IMG/VR virus record: IMGVR_UViG_3300021957_000289
Span: 1-24,708 of that record
DNA: 24,708 bases
Reading direction: 5' to 3' (one strand)
Source of the DNA: a virus
The first letter of the stretch is position 1; each line of letters begins with the position of its first letter. Below, piece after piece: positions 1-9,707 of this stretch. Under the pieces are notes generated by a model. The model was not told where the DNA came from, ran no database searches, and saw only the letters and a list, made by a program, of their open reading frames with translations. The position numbers and the translations under genes were made by a program.

Positions 1-900
1 GATGTTGGCGTATTCTATGGTGATAGAAAAGAGTTTGGGCATAAGCATACAATATGCACATGGCAAAGTCTAAATGTGTTGCTAAAGAACACAAAGAACC
101 AAACAGTTGATATTACAATACATGAGTTTTTAGAAGACGTAGTTGCAGTGATAGTTGATGAAGTACATATGGCTAAAGCAGATGCACTTAAAACATTGCT
201 CACTGGAGTAATGGCACGTGTACCATTGCGTTGGGGACTAACAGGAACAGTGCCAAAAGAGCCATATGAGTTTCAAGCATTGCATTGTAGTTTAGGGCCA
301 GTGATAAATCAACTTGCTGCAAGTGAGCTACAGGAAAAAGGTGTACTTGCAAACTGTCACGTAAATTGTGTACAGTTAAGTGATCATGCTGAATTTACAA
401 ACTATCAGAGTGAATTAAAGTATCTATTTGAAGAAAAAGGCAGACTTGATACCATTGCAGGCTTGGTTATTGAAGTAAATAAAACTGGTAACACATTGGT
501 ATTGGTTGATAGAATAAGTGCTGGCACAGAGTTACTAAACAGAATGGGCGATGATGCAGTATTTGTAAGTGGTGCAACCAAAGCAAAAGCAAGACAGGAT
601 GAGTACGATGAAGTGGCTACTGCGACAGGTAAAATTATTATTGCTACATATGGTGTCGCGGCCGTGGGCATTAATCTGCCACGTATCTTCAATCTTGTCC
701 TTCTTGAGCCTGGTAAAAGTTTTGTACGGGTTATACAAAGTATTGGCAGGGGTATTCGTAAAGCGGAAGACAAAGACCACGTCCAAATCTGGGACATAAC
801 ATCTACTTGCAGATTTGCAAAAAGACATCTAACCAAACGTAAAGCATTCTATAGAGAAGCGAACTATCCGTACAGTGTAGAAAAACTGGAGTGGAACTAA
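1..900 (+). CDS. uvsW: UvsW-like superfamily 2 DNA/RNA helicase, 5' end missing
   Basis: The reading frame is open from base 1, so the N-terminus (Walker A part) lies outside the window; 299 residues are visible. Seen: motif II DEVH (nt 157-168), motif III-like GLTGT (about nt 238), and a C-terminal RecA lobe ending in motif VI QSIGRGIRK (nt 736-762), with TYGVAAVGINLPR just before it. This order and the C-terminal text fit T4 UvsW, which unwinds branched DNA and R-loops and helps switch replication from origin-dependent to recombination-dependent initiation. Its last codons hold the GGAG ribosome binding site for the next gene, whose ATG overlaps the stop (TAATG). A related RecG/RAD25-type phage helicase is the only real alternative. 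Confidence 0.88.
   Translation, partial: DVGVFYGDRKEFGHKHTICTWQSLNVLLKNTKNQTVDITIHEFLEDVVAVIVDEVHMAKADALKTLLTGVMARVPLRWGLTGTVPKEPYEFQALHCSLGPVINQLAASELQEKGVLANCHVNCVQLSDHAEFTNYQSELKYLFEEKGRLDTIAGLVIEVNKTGNTLVLVDRISAGTELLNRMGDDAVFVSGATKAKARQDEYDEVATATGKIIIATYGVAAVGINLPRIFNLVLLEPGKSFVRVIQSIGRGIRKAEDKDHVQIWDITSTCRFAKRHLTKRKAFYREANYPYSVEKLEWN
878..897 (+). repeat. uvsW 3'-end / ribosome-binding-site repeat, copy 1
   Basis: These 20 bases include the Shine-Dalgarno GGAG for the next gene. They recur at 1521-1540 with one mismatch, again directly before the ATG of an accessory gene. The copy here encodes EKLEWN of UvsW; the other encodes EKLDWN of a 13-codon leader ORF. Confidence 0.85.
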
Positions 901-3012: not shown

Positions 3013-3433
3013 GATGCGTTGTCTTGACAGTAAAAGCAGAGACTTTTACGATAGTCTGACAGATGAAGAACGCAAAAAGTTTTCCAACTTTCTCATGATA
3101 CGTTGGGGATCAAGTGTGCAAGGTCCTAATGAACTTCAAGAATACTATTTGATAGCCTGTAATGAACGTTTGAATAAACATTTCTTTGACATAAACAAGC
3201 ATCCTAAACTACAATGGTTATGTGCTACTGCTATTTCACCTGGTATGGGCAATCACAGACATCAGTGGATACCACCAAAGAAGAAAGAAAAAGGCAATAA
3301 TGAAGCAAAGAAGATGTTGATGGAGTTGTATCCTGCAATGAAAGCAGATGAAATAGATATGCTCAGTAAACTTGTAACAAATAAAGAACTGAAGGAACAC
3401 ATGCGTGACAGCGGAGTCGCAGACAAAAAGTGA
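2984..3433 (+). CDS. 62: probable clamp-loader small subunit (T4 gp62-like)
   Basis: 149 aa from ATG 2984; a longer frame from 2924 is unlikely because it would lie inside the membrane-protein gene. Visible segments that line up with my memory of cyanophage gp62: FLMIRWGSSV (36-45), then HPKLQWLCATAI (73-84) followed by HRHQWI (91-96), a basic linker, and a C-terminal LYPAMKADEIDMLSKLV with KELKEHMRDSG. T4 gp62 partners the gp44 ATPase to load the gp45 sliding clamp. It has no ATPase motif itself, as here. Neither gp44 nor gp45 is in the window. The match is from pattern, not alignment, so an unrelated conserved protein remains possible. Confidence 0.55.
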   Translation: MSEKLNIANEMRCLDSKSRDFYDSLTDEERKKFSNFLMIRWGSSVQGPNELQEYYLIACNERLNKHFFDINKHPKLQWLCATAISPGMGNHRHQWIPPKKKEKGNNEAKKMLMELYPAMKADEIDMLSKLVTNKELKEHMRDSGVADKK

Positions 3434-4106
3434 AACCTATCGATGCAAGTACTGCGAACGTGAGTTTAGAAAAGAAAGCACACTAGCAGTACATCTCTGT
3501 GAACAAAAACGCAGATTCCAAGAAGAAAAAGAAGTTGGTGTGCAAATTGGTTTGCAAAGTTATTTGAAGTTTTACACCATGACACAGGGCAGTGCAAAAC
3601 TAAAAAGCTATGCAGATTTTGCAACATCACCATACTACAAAGCATTTGTAAAATTTGGTAGACATTGTGTTGGTATAAATGCTATCAATGTACCCAAGTT
3701 TGTTGAATGGGTGATCAAACAAAACAAAAAACTAGATCACTGGTGCAAAGAAGCAGTATATGATGAATACCTTCATGAATATATTAGACGGGAAGCACTA
3801 ACAGATGCACTTGAACGTGGCATTGAATATAGTATAAAGTGGAGTGAACGTACTGGACATCCTGCACAGGACTTTTTGCGTTATGGAAATGATAATGCAG
3901 TTGCGTTTGCAATAAGTACTGGACGCATATCACCTTGGTTGGTGTTTAACTGTGAGTCAGGACAACGATATCTAGCAGATATGAATCCTGATCAAACAAA
4001 AATTGTATGGCCTTGGATTGATCCAGACTTTTGGCAAAAGAAGTTTCGTGACTATCCAGCAGATCAGGCATATTGTGAAGAAATACTTAAACAGGCAGGA
4101 TGGTAG
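3405..4106 (+). CDS. C2HC zinc-finger phage protein
   Basis: 233 aa using GTG 3405 as start: AGGA at 3393-3396 gives 8 nt spacing, and no ATG occurs before the zinc finger. It overlaps the gp62-like gene by 29 nt. Residues 14-32 form a finger, C14-x2-C17 then H30-x-C32, followed by a basic stretch QKRRFQEEKE; this is likely a nucleic-acid contact. The remaining 190 residues are helical and aromatic (SYADFATSPYYKAFVKFGRH, DPDFWQKKF) and match no family I can name, although I recall similar proteins in T4-like cyanophages. Position beside replication genes suggests a role in DNA metabolism or transcription control, but that is inference. Confidence 0.75.
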   Translation: MTAESQTKSETYRCKYCEREFRKESTLAVHLCEQKRRFQEEKEVGVQIGLQSYLKFYTMTQGSAKLKSYADFATSPYYKAFVKFGRHCVGINAINVPKFVEWVIKQNKKLDHWCKEAVYDEYLHEYIRREALTDALERGIEYSIKWSERTGHPAQDFLRYGNDNAVAFAISTGRISPWLVFNCESGQRYLADMNPDQTKIVWPWIDPDFWQKKFRDYPADQAYCEEILKQAGW

Positions 4107-4107
4107 C

Positions 4108-4359
4108 ATGCCGTTTTACACAGAAAAAATAAGTTTTACATTACCTGCAGAGGAGAAGAAAATGGGATTGACTAGACCAAAAATCCAACAAATGGAAAAA
4201 GTAAACAAATCCAAAGATCCACAATTCTATATGTTGCTGATAAAAAGTGCGATAAGAATTGGCGGATGCTATGCATTGTTAACTGGTGATTTAGTTATGG
4301 CTGCAATAGTATTTGCGATTGCTGAATTTGCTAACATAGGACACTACATTAGTAAATGA
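4108..4359 (+). CDS. small membrane protein
   Basis: 83 aa from ATG 4108, two bases after the previous stop, with AGGA 7 nt upstream. A second good start is ATG 4162, with AGGAG 6 nt upstream, which would give 65 aa; the sequence does not decide between them. The C-terminal half is hydrophobic (LLIKSAIRIGGCYALLTGDL then VMAAIVFAIAEFANIG), enough for one long or two short membrane helices with few charges. The N-terminal half is basic and polar. Function is unknown. Its stop overlaps the next gene by ATGA. Confidence 0.65.
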   Translation: MPFYTEKISFTLPAEEKKMGLTRPKIQQMEKVNKSKDPQFYMLLIKSAIRIGGCYALLTGDLVMAAIVFAIAEFANIGHYISK

Positions 4360-4916
4360 GTGCTGATGTTGACATAGATTTTGCTGATAGGCAACAGATA
4401 ATTGATTTGATTCAATGTACACCGGCAAGAATGAACGCAGAAGGAAAAAAGCACAATAGTGGTGTTTATGTTACTCCTGTACCATTTGATGCAATAAACA
4501 GTTGTGCAAGCATAGACTATGAGTATGCAGAACAACGTGGGTATTTTAAATTAGACTTACTTAATCAAAGTGTGTACACACTGATACGTGACCAAGCACA
4601 CTATGATGCTATGTTGGCAAAAGAAACAGACTGGACACGTTTACAAGACAAAGATTTTTGCGAACAGATAGTGCATATTGGGAACTATCATGACCTAATA
4701 GTTGCAATGCAACCAGACAACATACAACGCATGGCAGCATTTATCAGTATAATACGTCCAGGTAAATCTCACCTACAACGTAAGAGTTGGACTGATGTAT
4801 TTGCTACTGTGTGGGATGGAGATAATAGTGCTGGTTTTGTATTTAAAAAATCACATGCAATCAGTTATGCACGTCTTGTTGCACTACACATTAATCTACT
4901 TTGCGAACCAGTGTAA
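4356..4916 (+). CDS. miniature family C DNA polymerase-like protein (DnaE palm signatures)
   Basis: Only 186 aa, yet it carries the catalytic landmarks of DnaE/PolC in order. DVDIDF (4-9, matching PDIDIDF with the two metal-binding aspartates) stands at the very N-terminus. HNSGVYVTPVPF follows at 33-44 (DnaE HxxGVxI region), then GYFKLDLL at 62-69 (third aspartate D67), IIRPGK at 132-137, and FKKSHAISYARLVAL at 162-176 (DnaE NKSHAxAYA fingers motif). Missing are the PHP domain, the upstream RGSxxGS nucleotide-binding motif and room for full thumb and fingers. It may be an accessory or regulatory protein, a degenerate paralogue, or one part of a split enzyme. ATG overlaps the previous stop (ATGA). 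The 3' end overlaps the opposing gene by 26 nt. Confidence 0.7.
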   Translation: MSADVDIDFADRQQIIDLIQCTPARMNAEGKKHNSGVYVTPVPFDAINSCASIDYEYAEQRGYFKLDLLNQSVYTLIRDQAHYDAMLAKETDWTRLQDKDFCEQIVHIGNYHDLIVAMQPDNIQRMAAFISIIRPGKSHLQRKSWTDVFATVWDGDNSAGFVFKKSHAISYARLVALHINLLCEPV

Positions 4917-5268
4917 TACTTCTTCGTTTTATTTTTTTACGACTAAGTTCTGCTAGGCTTGTGCTTGGCCCTAGTAAAATTTGTAGATCTTTGTTTATGA
5001 AAGTTTTTAAATAAGGTTTAAACTTTTCCCAATCTTGTTTTAAAAAAATGTTAATTGGTATACTGCGATTAGATTCCCACCACCATTGATTGGCTAGTTC
5101 TAGAAAATCACGTTTGATATCATCTTCGACGATACTTCCAAAGTCATAGATAGTAGTGATTTGATCATCGCGGTTTTGGATTACACCAACATATTCATTA
5201 CCTGCATAGGTACAGAAAGTGATAAACGGATATCGTCCTGCAATCTTTTCGAACAGCTCTACGCCCAT
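4891..5268 (-). CDS. conserved T4-like cyanophage-type hypothetical protein, 125 aa
   Basis: Read right to left, the protein is full of conserved-looking aromatic and charged motifs: GRYPFITFCTYAGNEYVGVI near residues 11-30, WWWESNRSIPINIFLKQDW near 62-80, and a basic end KKIKRRSITLVRKVD. I recall near-identical patterns in marine T4-like phage hypothetical proteins, so the gene is real although no role is known. It converges on the miniature polymerase gene and shares 26 nt with its 3' end. Its start codon sits inside the late promoter motif that serves the divergent gene at 5295. Confidence 0.85.
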   Translation of the reverse strand: MGVELFEKIAGRYPFITFCTYAGNEYVGVIQNRDDQITTIYDFGSIVEDDIKRDFLELANQWWWESNRSIPINIFLKQDWEKFKPYLKTFINKDLQILLGPSTSLAELSRKKIKRRSITLVRKVD

Positions 5269-6331: not shown

Positions 6332-7303
6332 ATGATCGATCTATTGAGTTACATTCCGCAAAAGCGAAAACATACCAGTTCTGGATGGGTAAGTTTCAAT
6401 GCACCTTGTTGTGTTCATCAAGGTGAATCAAAAGACAAGCGTCTTCGTGGTGGAATCAAACAACAGGATGACGATTGGAGTTATCATTGCTTTAACTGTG
6501 GTTTTACAGCAAGTTTTGTTGCTGGACGCAACGTTGGTTACAAAACACGTAAACTATTAGAATGGCTAGGTGTTGATCCAACTGATATTGAAAGGCTCAA
6601 CTTAGAAAGTTTGAAACGTAAAAATTTATTAGATTTAACTGCTGAACGCAATACCATTAAACAAAAACAAATAGACTTTGAAGAACAAGAAATACCCACA
6701 GGTGTTGAACGAATAGATGAGAACAATCGTGGTCACTTTCATTATGTTGAATACCTGCGTAATCGTGGTATAGTGTTTGGTTATCCATTTTTAGTAGATA
6801 AAAAACGTGGACCAAGAGACAGGATTGTTATACCATACACTTACAAAAACAGGATAGTAGGATATACATCACGTTACTTGGATAATCGTACACCAAAGTT
6901 TATAAACAATCAACAACCTGGGTATGTGTTTGGTTACGATTTACAAAAGTCTGACTGGACTAGTGCAATAGTTGTTGAGGGTATATTTGATGCACTAAGT
7001 ATATCCGGATTAGCATGTATGCATGAGACCATTAGCAAAGATCAAGCACAGTTGTTGAAGCAGTTACAACGTAGAATTATAGTAGTACCAGATCAGGACC
7101 GTGCAGGATTAAGTATAATTGATGCCGCAGTAGAACACAAGTTTGAAGTTAGTATACCCGAATGGCCCAAAGATGTAAAAGATGTAAATGATGCAGTGGT
7201 GCGTTTTGGTGTAGCCGAAACACTACATCAAATTCATCAACATGCAGAACGTAGTAAGATAAAAATTGAAATGGCACGTAAACGCCTAGCGAGGATAGTA
7301 TGA
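6332..7303 (+). CDS. 61: DNA primase (T4 gp61-like, zinc finger plus Toprim)
   Basis: 323 aa, close to T4 gp61 (about 340). The N-terminal zinc-binding region has CCVH (26-29) and CFNC (53-56). The Toprim core shows IVVEGIFDA (213-221, catalytic E216), IIVVPDQDRAG (249-259, D254 and D256) and KDVNDA (283-288). It makes the RNA primers for lagging-strand synthesis and works with the gp41-type helicase, whose gene follows with a 4-nt ATGA overlap. Upstream is a 44 bp gap with a promoter-like sequence and no ribosome binding site, which suggests a new leaderless transcription unit starting here and reading into helicase and radical SAM genes. Confidence 0.92.
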   Translation: MIDLLSYIPQKRKHTSSGWVSFNAPCCVHQGESKDKRLRGGIKQQDDDWSYHCFNCGFTASFVAGRNVGYKTRKLLEWLGVDPTDIERLNLESLKRKNLLDLTAERNTIKQKQIDFEEQEIPTGVERIDENNRGHFHYVEYLRNRGIVFGYPFLVDKKRGPRDRIVIPYTYKNRIVGYTSRYLDNRTPKFINNQQPGYVFGYDLQKSDWTSAIVVEGIFDALSISGLACMHETISKDQAQLLKQLQRRIIVVPDQDRAGLSIIDAAVEHKFEVSIPEWPKDVKDVNDAVVRFGVAETLHQIHQHAERSKIKIEMARKRLARIV

Positions 7304-8703
7304 CAGATTATAACTATGATGTACAAAAGTTATTTTTAGAAATGATGATGCATGATGCACAAAGTTTTTTGAGAGTACAAAATATATTCAATACAGAAAA
7401 TTTTGACAGAGACTTGCGTGAAACTGCAAAGTTTATCTATGACCATGCAAACGAACATAAAACACTTCCTGACAGAGCACAGATAAAAGCAGTGACAAAC
7501 GTTGAACTATTGGAGATTCCAGATCTCAATAGTGGACATACAGATTGGTTTTTGAACGAATTTGAAGCATTTACCAGACGTACTGAACTAGAACGTGCCA
7601 TACTTAAAAGTGCAGACCTGTTAGAAAAGGGAGAGTATTCACCAGTTGAGAAACTAATCAAGGATGCAGTACAGATAAGTTTAACAAAGGATCTGGGTAC
7701 AGATTACTTTGAAGATCCTCGTGCAAGACTTGCGGCACTGAAAGACAACAACGGACAGAATTCAACAGGTTGGGCAAACTTAGACAAATTATTGTATGGT
7801 GGGTTTAACAGAGGAGAACTACAGATATTTGCAGGCGGGTCAGGATCAGGTAAAAGTTTGTTCATGCAAAACTTGGCAGTGAACTGGATGGAAGCAGGAC
7901 TCAGCGGAGTATACATTACACTCGAATTGAGTGAAGGGTTGACAGCTATGCGTATTGACAGTATGTTAACAAACACTCCTAGTAAACAGTTGTTCAAAGA
8001 CATTGAAACTGTTGAAATGAAAGTTAAAATGATGGGCAAGAAGTCAGGAAAACTTCAAATAAAATACATGCCTGCACAGAGCACAGTTAACGACATAAGA
8101 GCATTTGTAAAAGAACTAAGCATCAAACAAGGAAAAGAAATAGACTTTATGTGTGTTGACTATTTGGATTTGCTTATGCCAGTAAGTGCAAAAGTATCGC
8201 CAAATGATCTGTTTGTTAAGGACAAGTATGTATCTGAAGAACTGCGTAACCTTGCAAGGGAACTTAACATATTGTTTGTAACTGCTTCACAGTTGAATAG
8301 AAGTGCAGTTGAAGAAATAGAGTTTGATCATTCGCATATATCAGGTGGTATCAGTAAGATCAATACTGCTGACAATGTGTTTGGTATCTTTACAAGCCGT
8401 GCAATGAGAGAACGTGGCAGATATCAGATACAGGCTATGAAGACTAGAAGTAGTTCAGGTGTTGGACAGAAAGTAGACTTGGAGTTTGACATAGAAAGTT
8501 TGCGTATACGTGACTTAGGAGATGATGAAGAATATCAACAGTTTAAGAAACAGAGTTCAAGTATCTATGATCAAATAAAAGCCAAGACACTCACAACTGA
8601 CACTGTAAACGATGCAACTGTGGCAGACGAACCAGGTAAGATTGTTGCTGATGTACAAAGCACAAAACTTAAACAGATGTTAGCAGGTATCAAACAAAAA
8701 TGA
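7300..8703 (+). CDS. 41: replicative DNA helicase (T4 gp41/DnaB family)
   Basis: 467 aa, similar to T4 gp41 (about 475). The N-terminal helical domain spans about 1-150. The RecA-like domain has Walker A GGSGSGKS (179-186), a likely catalytic glutamate in TLELSEG (207-213), Walker B MCVDYLDLL (284-292), motif H3 TASQLNR (328-334) and a C-terminal KTRSSS (381-386) for the arginine-finger/H4 region. It forms the hexameric 5'-3' helicase at the fork and loads primase. The start overlaps the primase stop (ATGA) and the stop overlaps the radical SAM start (ATGA). The C-terminal 60 residues are polar and variable. Confidence 0.95.
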   Translation: MTDYNYDVQKLFLEMMMHDAQSFLRVQNIFNTENFDRDLRETAKFIYDHANEHKTLPDRAQIKAVTNVELLEIPDLNSGHTDWFLNEFEAFTRRTELERAILKSADLLEKGEYSPVEKLIKDAVQISLTKDLGTDYFEDPRARLAALKDNNGQNSTGWANLDKLLYGGFNRGELQIFAGGSGSGKSLFMQNLAVNWMEAGLSGVYITLELSEGLTAMRIDSMLTNTPSKQLFKDIETVEMKVKMMGKKSGKLQIKYMPAQSTVNDIRAFVKELSIKQGKEIDFMCVDYLDLLMPVSAKVSPNDLFVKDKYVSEELRNLARELNILFVTASQLNRSAVEEIEFDHSHISGGISKINTADNVFGIFTSRAMRERGRYQIQAMKTRSSSGVGQKVDLEFDIESLRIRDLGDDEEYQQFKKQSSSIYDQIKAKTLTTDTVNDATVADEPGKIVADVQSTKLKQMLAGIKQK

Positions 8704-9707
8704 TATCTTACAATGAAATTCGTGATGTTCATTTAGAAATTGCATCTTTGTGTAATGCGAGATGTCCTTGGTGTCCTCGAAACTTCTGGGGGTATCCTTA
8801 TAATGGAGGTTATCCTGAAACGTATTTGACATTAGAGCAAACAAAAAAAATATTTTCAAAAAAATTTCTGCTACAATTGAAATCAATTCGTGTTAATGGA
8901 AATTTTGGCGATATTGTGATGAATCCCGAAGGTCAAGATATTATAAAATACTTTAGAGATAATAATCCAAAAATGAATATTTCGATTAACACCAACGGCG
9001 GAGCTAGAAAAGAAGATTTTTGGAAAAGCCTTGCCAGCAGTAGTGCCACGGTTAATTTTGCAATTGATGGATTAGAAGACACCCACAGTTTATATCGTCA
9101 AGATACTTCTTGGAAAACTGTGATTAAAAATGCTAAAACTTTTATTTCAAACGGAGGAAATGCAATTTGGCAGTTTATAGAATTTGATCATAATCGTCAT
9201 CAAATCGAAGAATGTAAACAACTGAGCATTCAACTGGAATTTTCAAAATTTAAAATAGTTGACGAAGGAAGAAACACTGCTCCTGTATTTGACAAGAAAG
9301 GTAACCTGGCTCATACATTAGGATCATACTCAGGAGAAACCAATTTTGAAAAACTTCTTGACAGTAAAAAAACTGATGATATTTTATTAGAAGATATTAT
9401 TCCAGGAAGAAAACCTTGCGCCAGTGTAATCTGTGAAACAAAAAAACTTAAAAGCATTTATATCTCTGCCAATGGAGATGTGTATCCTTGTTGTTACACT
9501 GGGTTTTACCCTAAGACATACGGGAAAGGGCAGTATCATCAAGCTGCCAACAGTCAATTAATTCCAATGATTGAAAAAAATAATGCATTAGTTTACACTT
9601 TGGAACAATGTATTGAATGGTTTGGCAAAGTGGAACAAAGTTGGATACTTAAAGATTATGAAAATGGACGGTTAGTCATTTGCGATGATAACTGTGGTAC
9701 CTGTTAG
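8700..9707 (+). CDS. radical SAM protein with SPASM-like C-terminal cluster domain
   Basis: 335 aa. The radical SAM cluster motif is C18-x3-C22-x2-C25 within LCNARCPWCPR, followed by a TIM-barrel-like part (RVNGNFGD at 64-71, SINTNGG at 95-101, FAIDGLEDTH at 120-129). The C-terminal part has C240, C245, NGDVYPCC (258-265), C304 and a terminal C328/C332/C335 group, the layout of SPASM/twitch domains that bind extra iron-sulfur clusters. Such enzymes modify peptides, proteins or small molecules; no precursor peptide or partner is visible nearby. The gene is coupled to helicase by ATGA. By eye it has more long A and T runs than its neighbours, hinting at separate acquisition. Its 3' end overlaps the opposing polymerase gene by 4 nt. 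Confidence 0.85.
   Translation: MISYNEIRDVHLEIASLCNARCPWCPRNFWGYPYNGGYPETYLTLEQTKKIFSKKFLLQLKSIRVNGNFGDIVMNPEGQDIIKYFRDNNPKMNISINTNGGARKEDFWKSLASSSATVNFAIDGLEDTHSLYRQDTSWKTVIKNAKTFISNGGNAIWQFIEFDHNRHQIEECKQLSIQLEFSKFKIVDEGRNTAPVFDKKGNLAHTLGSYSGETNFEKLLDSKKTDDILLEDIIPGRKPCASVICETKKLKSIYISANGDVYPCCYTGFYPKTYGKGQYHQAANSQLIPMIEKNNALVYTLEQCIEWFGKVEQSWILKDYENGRLVICDDNCGTC

Follow-up and report, generated by a model that had tools for sequence, protein, structure and literature searches.

A 186-residue phage protein as the probable C-terminal half of a split minimal family C DNA polymerase

What can a protein of only 186 residues do with the three catalytic aspartates of a family C DNA polymerase? 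The question is raised by a stretch of viral DNA of 24,708 nucleotides (IMG/VR virus record IMGVR_UViG_3300021957_000289, positions 1 to 24,708; hereafter the window), in which the plus-strand frame 4356–4916 is open over 186 residues, its ATG (4356–4358) overlapping the stop codon of the preceding open reading frame (4357–4359) as ATGA. An initial annotation, made from the sequence alone, had listed the aspartates D6, D8 and D67 and the motifs DVDIDF (residues 4–9), HNSGVYV (33–39), KLDLL (65–69), RPGK (134–137) and FKKSHAISYARLVAL (162–176), in the same order as in DnaE and in a 566-residue polymerase encoded further along the window. All of these are present, and profile alignments and structure reproduce their order. 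The annotation had pictured a stripped-down palm-like module and left its role between accessory subunit, regulator, decoy and partner in a split polymerase. We consider the last of these likely: the protein would be the C-terminal subunit of an active two-subunit minimal family C polymerase of large tailed phages. From sequences and predicted structures we infer that the split halves assemble into one active site, that they polymerize and what they do in the cell.

The protein belongs over nearly its whole length to PHROG family 11778, named ‘DNA polymerase’ (E 1.2e-52). On its own it has no Pfam match even at E ≤ 10, phmmer with the single sequence found nothing in the Protein Data Bank (PDB), and BLASTP against the 566-residue polymerase gave only segments at chance level. 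Single-sequence searches are thus too weak for this protein, so profiles and structure were needed; at the loose limit of E ≤ 1, the Pfam domain DNA_pol3_finger is matched by 74 of 108 aligned homologues (best 4.1e-8). Relatives are numerous, with 518 in IMG/VR (the best 80 of 518 being kept) and about 590–600 in further scans (the best 80 kept per scan). In INPHARED, 63 phage records match at E ≤ 1e-5, and those listed are mainly large phages of the RaK2, 121Q/PBECO4, GAP32, CBB, PA5oct, Atu_ph07, Phosso, SCTP-2 and XacN1 kinds, whose proteins share 28–43% identity with that of the window; two 141-kb Alishewanella phages are also among them. The deposited names are often ‘hypothetical’ or ‘putative membrane protein’.

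The catalytic residues are invariant across this family. We clustered the homologues at 90% identity, which reduced 213 unique sequences out of 247 to 141 clusters for the 186-residue protein (the C-half) and 114 unique sequences out of 126 to 104 clusters for the partner described below (the N-half). D4, D6 and D8 are kept in all 140 clusters that cover them, and H33, G36, K65, D67, W93, R134, P135, K137 and H167 in 141 of 141. D6, D8 and D67 are likewise invariant in 22 diverse members with 28–94% identity to the window, so the aspartates, whose conservation the initial annotation had proposed to check, show no free variation. We compared 12 pairs of relatives in which the 566-residue polymerase is also present. 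The ratio of non-synonymous to synonymous substitution rates (dN/dS) of the C-half is 0.08–0.12 in ten of them, synonymous divergence (dS) being saturated in the other two. The C-half is under purifying selection.

An AlphaFold2 model of the C-half, built on 108 family sequences (the window plus 107 of 130 eligible representatives), reached a mean predicted local distance difference test score (pLDDT) of 93.4. The top ten rows of a VIA-align search are eight chains of the alpha subunit of DNA polymerase III (Pol III) and two more whose title says just ‘DNA polymerase with inhibitor’ and which we take to be PolC. They score Z 9.6 to 6.2 over 176–185 aligned residues, and the next row Z 3.1 over 43; the best match, 3e0d, superposes at 3.9 Å over 184 residues. 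Structure prediction and superposition, both suggested in the initial annotation, therefore return a family C fold, which aligns to residues 399–780 of Escherichia coli DnaE. That range comprises the palm from the DxD strand onwards plus the fingers, so elements of the fingers lie inside the 186 residues, contrary to what had been supposed.

The missing RGSxxGS loop is encoded by another gene. In a scan against PHROG, the front of the 566-residue polymerase hit families whose sequences stop directly behind the GS loop (PHROGs 11127, 7513 and 13169); one of these, used as query, picked up a short protein in the genomes that carry the C-half. One example is on a 328-kb contig (G001) that is 99.97% identical to the window over 14,913 nucleotides. 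Its N-half gene encodes 157 residues (141686–142156, minus strand), lies about 91 kb from the C-half match (232737–233282, minus strand), ends in ...GVGRGSSVASYVLYLLGVHKIDSMYYDLDPGEFLR and matches PHROG 11127, also named ‘DNA polymerase’, over near its whole length (E 1.2e-39). The gene is not in the window, where the only match to the N-half profile is the 566-residue polymerase (E 8e-4). Across the family, the usual companion of the C-half is a protein of about 157–200 residues with a GxGRGSSxxS loop, in which GxGRGS and S132 do not vary in any of the 104 clusters. This supports the split-polymerase role, one of the options first listed, but with a partner other than the 566-residue polymerase that had been suggested.

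The N-half model has a pLDDT of 86.8 and was built on 90 rows (L095 plus 89 of 91), some of which begin upstream of the likely start codon. Its top 16 VIA-align rows are all DnaE or PolC chains, three of them from the inhibitor series, at Z 12.5 to 7.7, and the next row scores 2.5. The best match is 5lew (Z 12.5, 2.2 Å over 98 residues), which pairs with model residues 57–157, and the model aligns to E. coli DnaE 279–393. With 279–393 covered by the N-half and 399–780 by the C-half, the two lie end to end on one DnaE chain, with no repeat and almost no loss at the joint. The idea of a palm-like module is thus right as to the fold, although the module is most likely half of a split enzyme and does not stand alone. 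A profile search against family C polymerases, also recommended at the outset, agrees in direction, the best PDB matches of the half-gene profiles being Pol III alpha, but with weak E-values (0.008 and 0.047).

The position of the joint is conserved on both sides. All 126 N-half frames stop 2–4 residues past the F that closes the helix: 112 end one residue after FL, 3 two residues after it, 9 have FI, FF or FS, and 2 were read separately (EFFR, EFFHD). An Alishewanella N-half outside this set ends in AELSKEM instead of EFL(R/K). On the other side, a methionine lies 2–6 residues before DxDxD in 208 of the 244 C-half frames with this motif; in the rest it adjoins the motif (14), lies farther away (11) or is absent from the frame (11). 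Three further C-half frames are without DxDxD, two of them cut at a contig end. The two genes come within 10 kb of each other in 8 loci. Gene ends so placed also decide against joining of the halves after translation by a split intein. Such arrangements exist in cyanobacteria, where DnaE is encoded by two distant genes and trans-spliced by inteins, the split lying at a different place from the one described here. A family B polymerase is split with an intein in phage MIJ3 (PMC6892783), and this phage is itself a carrier of both half-genes. With an N-half that stops 2–4 residues past the F and a C-half methionine 2–6 residues before DxDxD, however, there is no room for intein halves, and we rejected this possibility as having next to no chance of being correct.

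Comparison with the intact 566-residue polymerase shows what the split enzyme does without. From DxD to HxxG the C-half has 31 residues (median; range 27–33) and the intact enzyme 86, and from RP to the H motif 31 against 92–93, a difference of about 60 since the end points differ slightly. The remaining distances are close, at 32 against 36 residues from HxxG to KxD and 68 against 73 from KxD to RP. These values come from the 122 of 141 C-half clusters whose motifs fit the patterns and from 9 of 10 reference rows. The C-half is therefore without two stretches, of about 55 residues at the thumb position and about 60 in the fingers, in a frame that is otherwise nearly unchanged. As far as sequence tells, the split enzyme has no thumb, and its two short chains would be too small for PHP, OB and clamp-binding domains. 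The initial annotation had placed loop, thumb and fingers all outside the protein; this holds for the thumb, which is absent, and for the loop, which is on a separate gene, but not for the fingers, which are partly inside.

The two half-genes mostly occur together. At thresholds of E ≤ 1e-8 for the N-half and E ≤ 1e-5 for the C-half, 59 INPHARED records hold both, out of 62 listed C-half records (62 of 63) and 60 N-half records. The unpaired ones are two Alishewanella phages, one 109-kb record and one N-half record whose C-half may be in the one match outside the 62. In the one Alishewanella phage searched, a profile then found the N-half. This N-half (L407) is divergent, with a profile E-value of 1.3e-13, and was missed by tblastn at 1e-8. 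We also searched 30 large records with both profiles; they had been picked for holding a half-gene (one of them, LR756508, for the 566-residue type), so they measure pairing and not prevalence. The 484-kb LR756508 matches through its intact 566-type polymerase only, the split pair not being found there, and the other 29 comprise 24 with both halves, 3 with the C-half only and 2 with the N-half only. Known hosts of phages with the split pair include Pseudomonas, Klebsiella, Escherichia, Salmonella, Erwinia, Vibrio, Agrobacterium and others, alongside metagenome contigs, and the 141-kb Alishewanella phage Slicko01 shows that the pair also occurs below jumbo size. Twelve loci with the half-gene (L376–L387) are on contigs of cellular genomes, all of them records of metagenome-assembled genomes, archaeal and bacterial, from unrelated groups and several of them short. 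They probably represent phage DNA binned with cells.

How the two chains would work can be outlined by analogy, the roles of the motifs in the halves being those known from DnaE. The RPxK and SHA motifs are presumably parts of the DnaE fingers, and we take RPxK and KxSHAxxYA to lie near the nascent base pair. The N-half gene ends just past the helix that follows the RGSSxxS loop and the C-half begins just before the DxD strand. No ligation would be needed for the two chains to fold into one unit. The N-half loop would hold the triphosphate of the incoming nucleotide, while the C-half would contribute the HxxG strand, a shortened form of the fingers and all three aspartates that bind metal. With the RGSSxxS loop facing the aspartates, two metal ions could be bound and nucleotides added to a primer. 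Such an enzyme would probably be distributive and might serve in repair, in gap filling or in part of replication beside a family B replicase. In place of a thumb, another protein may help, for example the product of the convergent gene at 4891–5268. Searches of one open-access library turned up no biochemical test of the split enzyme.

Several observations weigh against an assembled two-chain polymerase. Five of the large records have only one half (C-half in G009, G010 and G012; N-half in G023 and G024), on contigs of 199–292 kb of unknown completeness. Across 28 genomes, distances between N-halves go in parallel with those between C-halves (r 0.85, against at most 0.43 in 5000 permutations), which favours pairing, but shared descent alone would lead to such a correlation and the comparison has no control gene. 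No fused N–C gene was found, none of the 247 C-half and 126 N-half frames containing both parts. On the structural side, none of the top rows of the N-half has a match for its first 56 or so residues, and Foldseek is borderline both in the PDB (at best E 9e-4 with the C-half and 0.041 with the N-half) and in a viral library (C-half E 1.4e-4). According to the VIA-align guidance, Z below 8, or below about 13 for mostly helical proteins such as the N-half, may reflect a common arrangement only, and the structural assignment of both halves relies on the gap in Z to the next rows. Without a thumb, the way in which primer and template are held is unexplained. An exonuclease of the RNase_T type, which could be an epsilon partner, turned up in only 5 of 10 records and in neither G001 nor G002, and a dedicated epsilon partner was rejected as not general.

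Among other explanations, the 186-residue protein might be an accessory or regulatory subunit of the 566-residue polymerase. The two genes lie about 5 kb apart, and of 20 close relatives whose downstream sequence reaches 9.5 kb or more, 15 have both (here and below, locus counts include several loci from one contig). However, only 4 of 59 loci that are more distant and have 9.5 kb downstream contain both, and of 32 large records that carry a split half, just 5 yielded a full-length relative of the 566-residue protein while the other 27 did not. Where it was found, it can be far away, at about 76–77 kb from the C-half in G006 and G022 and about 9.6 kb in G007. The 566-residue protein also has a complete set of motifs of its own, including the aspartates and the GS loop. 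On this distribution we rejected the accessory role, to which we give very little credence. Equally little credence goes to a decoy or regulator without catalysis that would act on a polymerase of the host or the phage. The protein is indeed very small, has no thumb and does not carry the nucleotide-binding loop on its own chain. But the three aspartates and H33, K65, R134, K137 and H167 are invariant in the clusters that cover them, dN/dS stays near 0.1 even where a second polymerase is present, and the loop is conserved in the co-occurring gene; residue invariance and dN/dS led us to reject this reading too.

It is somewhat less improbable, but still unlikely, that the split enzyme forms and acts as a template-independent or otherwise special nucleotidyltransferase, in end tailing, primer making or the modification of RNA or bases. 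The absence of a thumb and the loss of about 60 fingers residues relative to the 566-residue polymerase would suit such an activity, as would the family B replicase that is already present in 30 of the 32 split-carrying records of at least 141 kb. Against it, the fingers motifs RPxK and KxSHAxxYA are kept, and the gene is found among those for a UvsW-like helicase, a primase and a DnaB helicase. A two-subunit family C polymerase is the explanation that we prefer for the C-half and its partner, whose features are listed with the neighbouring genes in Table 1.

Table 1 Features of the C-half gene and of its surroundings in the window
Feature	Coordinates	Strand	Evidence or remarks
C-terminal half of split minimal Pol III alpha (likely assignment)	4356..4916	+	186 residues; PHROG 11778; model pLDDT 93.4; best structural match Z 9.6 over 184 residues (Pol III alpha chain)
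DVDID codons, residues 4–8, first metal-binding strand (D6, D8)	4365..4379	+	D4/D6/D8 in 140/140 clusters; strand 5–9 in the model
HNSG codons, residues 33–36, equivalent to DnaE HxGG	4452..4463	+	H33 and G36 in 141/141; aligned with HCGG of the 566-residue polymerase
KLD codons, residues 65–67, third catalytic aspartate D67 and K65	4548..4556	+	141/141; aligned with KVDIL of the 566-residue polymerase
RPGK codons, residues 134–137, fingers motif	4755..4766	+	R134, P135 and K137 in 141/141; aligned with the DnaE RPG motif
FKKSHAISY codons, residues 163–171, fingers helix	4842..4868	+	H167 in 141/141, K164 in 137/141, Y171 in 135/141; aligned with the DnaE FNKSH motif
UvsW-like helicase	76..900	+	Named by position, without a domain search: RaK2, GAP32 and PBECO4 have their UvsW / DEAD-DEAH helicase here
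Small convergent gene, 125 residues	4891..5268	-	PHROG 11637 (unknown function); overlaps the 3' end of the C-half
DNA primase	6332..7303	+	Context
DnaB-type replicative helicase	7300..8703	+	Context
Intact family C polymerase, 566 residues	9704..11404	-	RGSAGSS, DVDIDI, HCGG, KVDIL; spacer of thumb length

The surroundings of the C-half are conserved in order. The UvsW-like gene upstream (156 loci) and the primase (179) and DnaB (157) genes downstream have the same order and strand wherever blastp found them. Of 216 loci with 800 nucleotides or more of downstream sequence, 192 have a homologue of the PHROG 11637 gene on the opposite strand, and in 176 it lies within 300 nucleotides of the C-half end; the median overlap of the open frames is 10 nucleotides. 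The gene at 3405–4106 (plus strand), which encodes 233 residues of PHROG 11058 (function unknown) with a start that we take to be zinc-finger-like, was found upstream on the same strand in 217 loci. The plus-strand genes at 891–1493 and 1534–2262 are mainly those of the closest relatives, with homologues in 17 and 10 of 80 close loci and in 2 and 3 of 166 others, the window being counted among these. Between the helicase and the 566-residue polymerase, the gene at 8700–9707 (plus strand) has a homologue in 20 of 246 loci, the window included; its product is presumably radical-SAM-like, judging by a cysteine motif.

The 566-residue polymerase itself contains core Pfam domains only (DNA_pol3_alpha, 3e-41; DNA_pol3_finger, 9.7e-17), and the half-genes likewise show no other Pol III domains. 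Full-length relatives share 88–100% identity near the half-gene in close loci and 62–63% in five further loci, with open frames of 564–603 codons. Lateral exchange of this gene was considered and rejected: its dS is below that of the C-half in most pairs, but it is no clear outlier among neighbouring genes. A family B polymerase (PF00136) is present in G001 (E 1.7e-31), and of the large records it was not found in G010 and G018 (G023 was not searched). Given family B in 30 of 32 records and a 566-residue relative in 5 of 32, the split enzyme is neither the sole polymerase of these phages nor tied to the 566-residue one.

The initial annotation knew of no described function for such a protein, but one had already been proposed. 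Iyer et al. 2021 (PMC7824862) predicted a two-gene minimal Pol III alpha for ‘group 2.2’ jumbo phages, which may cooperate with the family B enzyme in the synthesis of one strand or in repair; no other Pol III domains are reported for the phage set of that study. Atu_ph07, placed there in group 2.2, carries both half-genes, and its own genome paper (PMC6102473) had noted genes for Pol III alpha and for epsilon. The window and its relatives resemble that system in the C-terminal protein, which stands alone and bears the aspartates and the template-binding part, in the distant separate gene for the N-terminal NTP-binding part and in the family B polymerase of the same genome. They differ in that the phage of the window is uncultured and its genome also has an intact 566-residue family C polymerase. 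By description and by the membership of Atu_ph07, rather than by accessions, the 186-residue gene fits the C-half of the system predicted by Iyer et al. To that prediction we add the exact and conserved joint, the numbers for invariance and co-occurrence, the absent thumb, the structural placement of both halves, a 141-kb phage as carrier and the finding that some genomes also encode an intact family C polymerase. PHROG 11778 and PHROG 11127 are both annotated as ‘DNA polymerase’, which names neither the split nor a mechanism.

Compared with complete bacterial DnaE and PolC, the split enzyme keeps the fold and the order of the palm and fingers motifs, with all three aspartates, but consists of two chains of about 340 residues together, has its RGSxxGS loop on a separate gene and has no thumb between the DxD and HxxG strands. 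The 566-residue polymerase shares the same core motifs but is a single chain with longer thumb and fingers spacers. Minimal forms of the polymerase have been proposed as models of ancestral versions (PMC7824862). It is conceivable, if rather doubtful, that a thumbless two-chain polymerase, a family B replicase and an intact mini-DnaE share labour in one phage cell, and that the split pair, instead of being a decayed DnaE, may keep an early Pol III core from before the addition of thumb, PHP and clamp-binding parts.

Both genes of one cultured phage are small enough for joint expression and assay. If the halves do assemble, they would form an unusually small family C polymerase core, of about 340 residues in two chains (no search for a smaller one was made), and would let one ask, on a natural example, which parts a replicative polymerase can do without.
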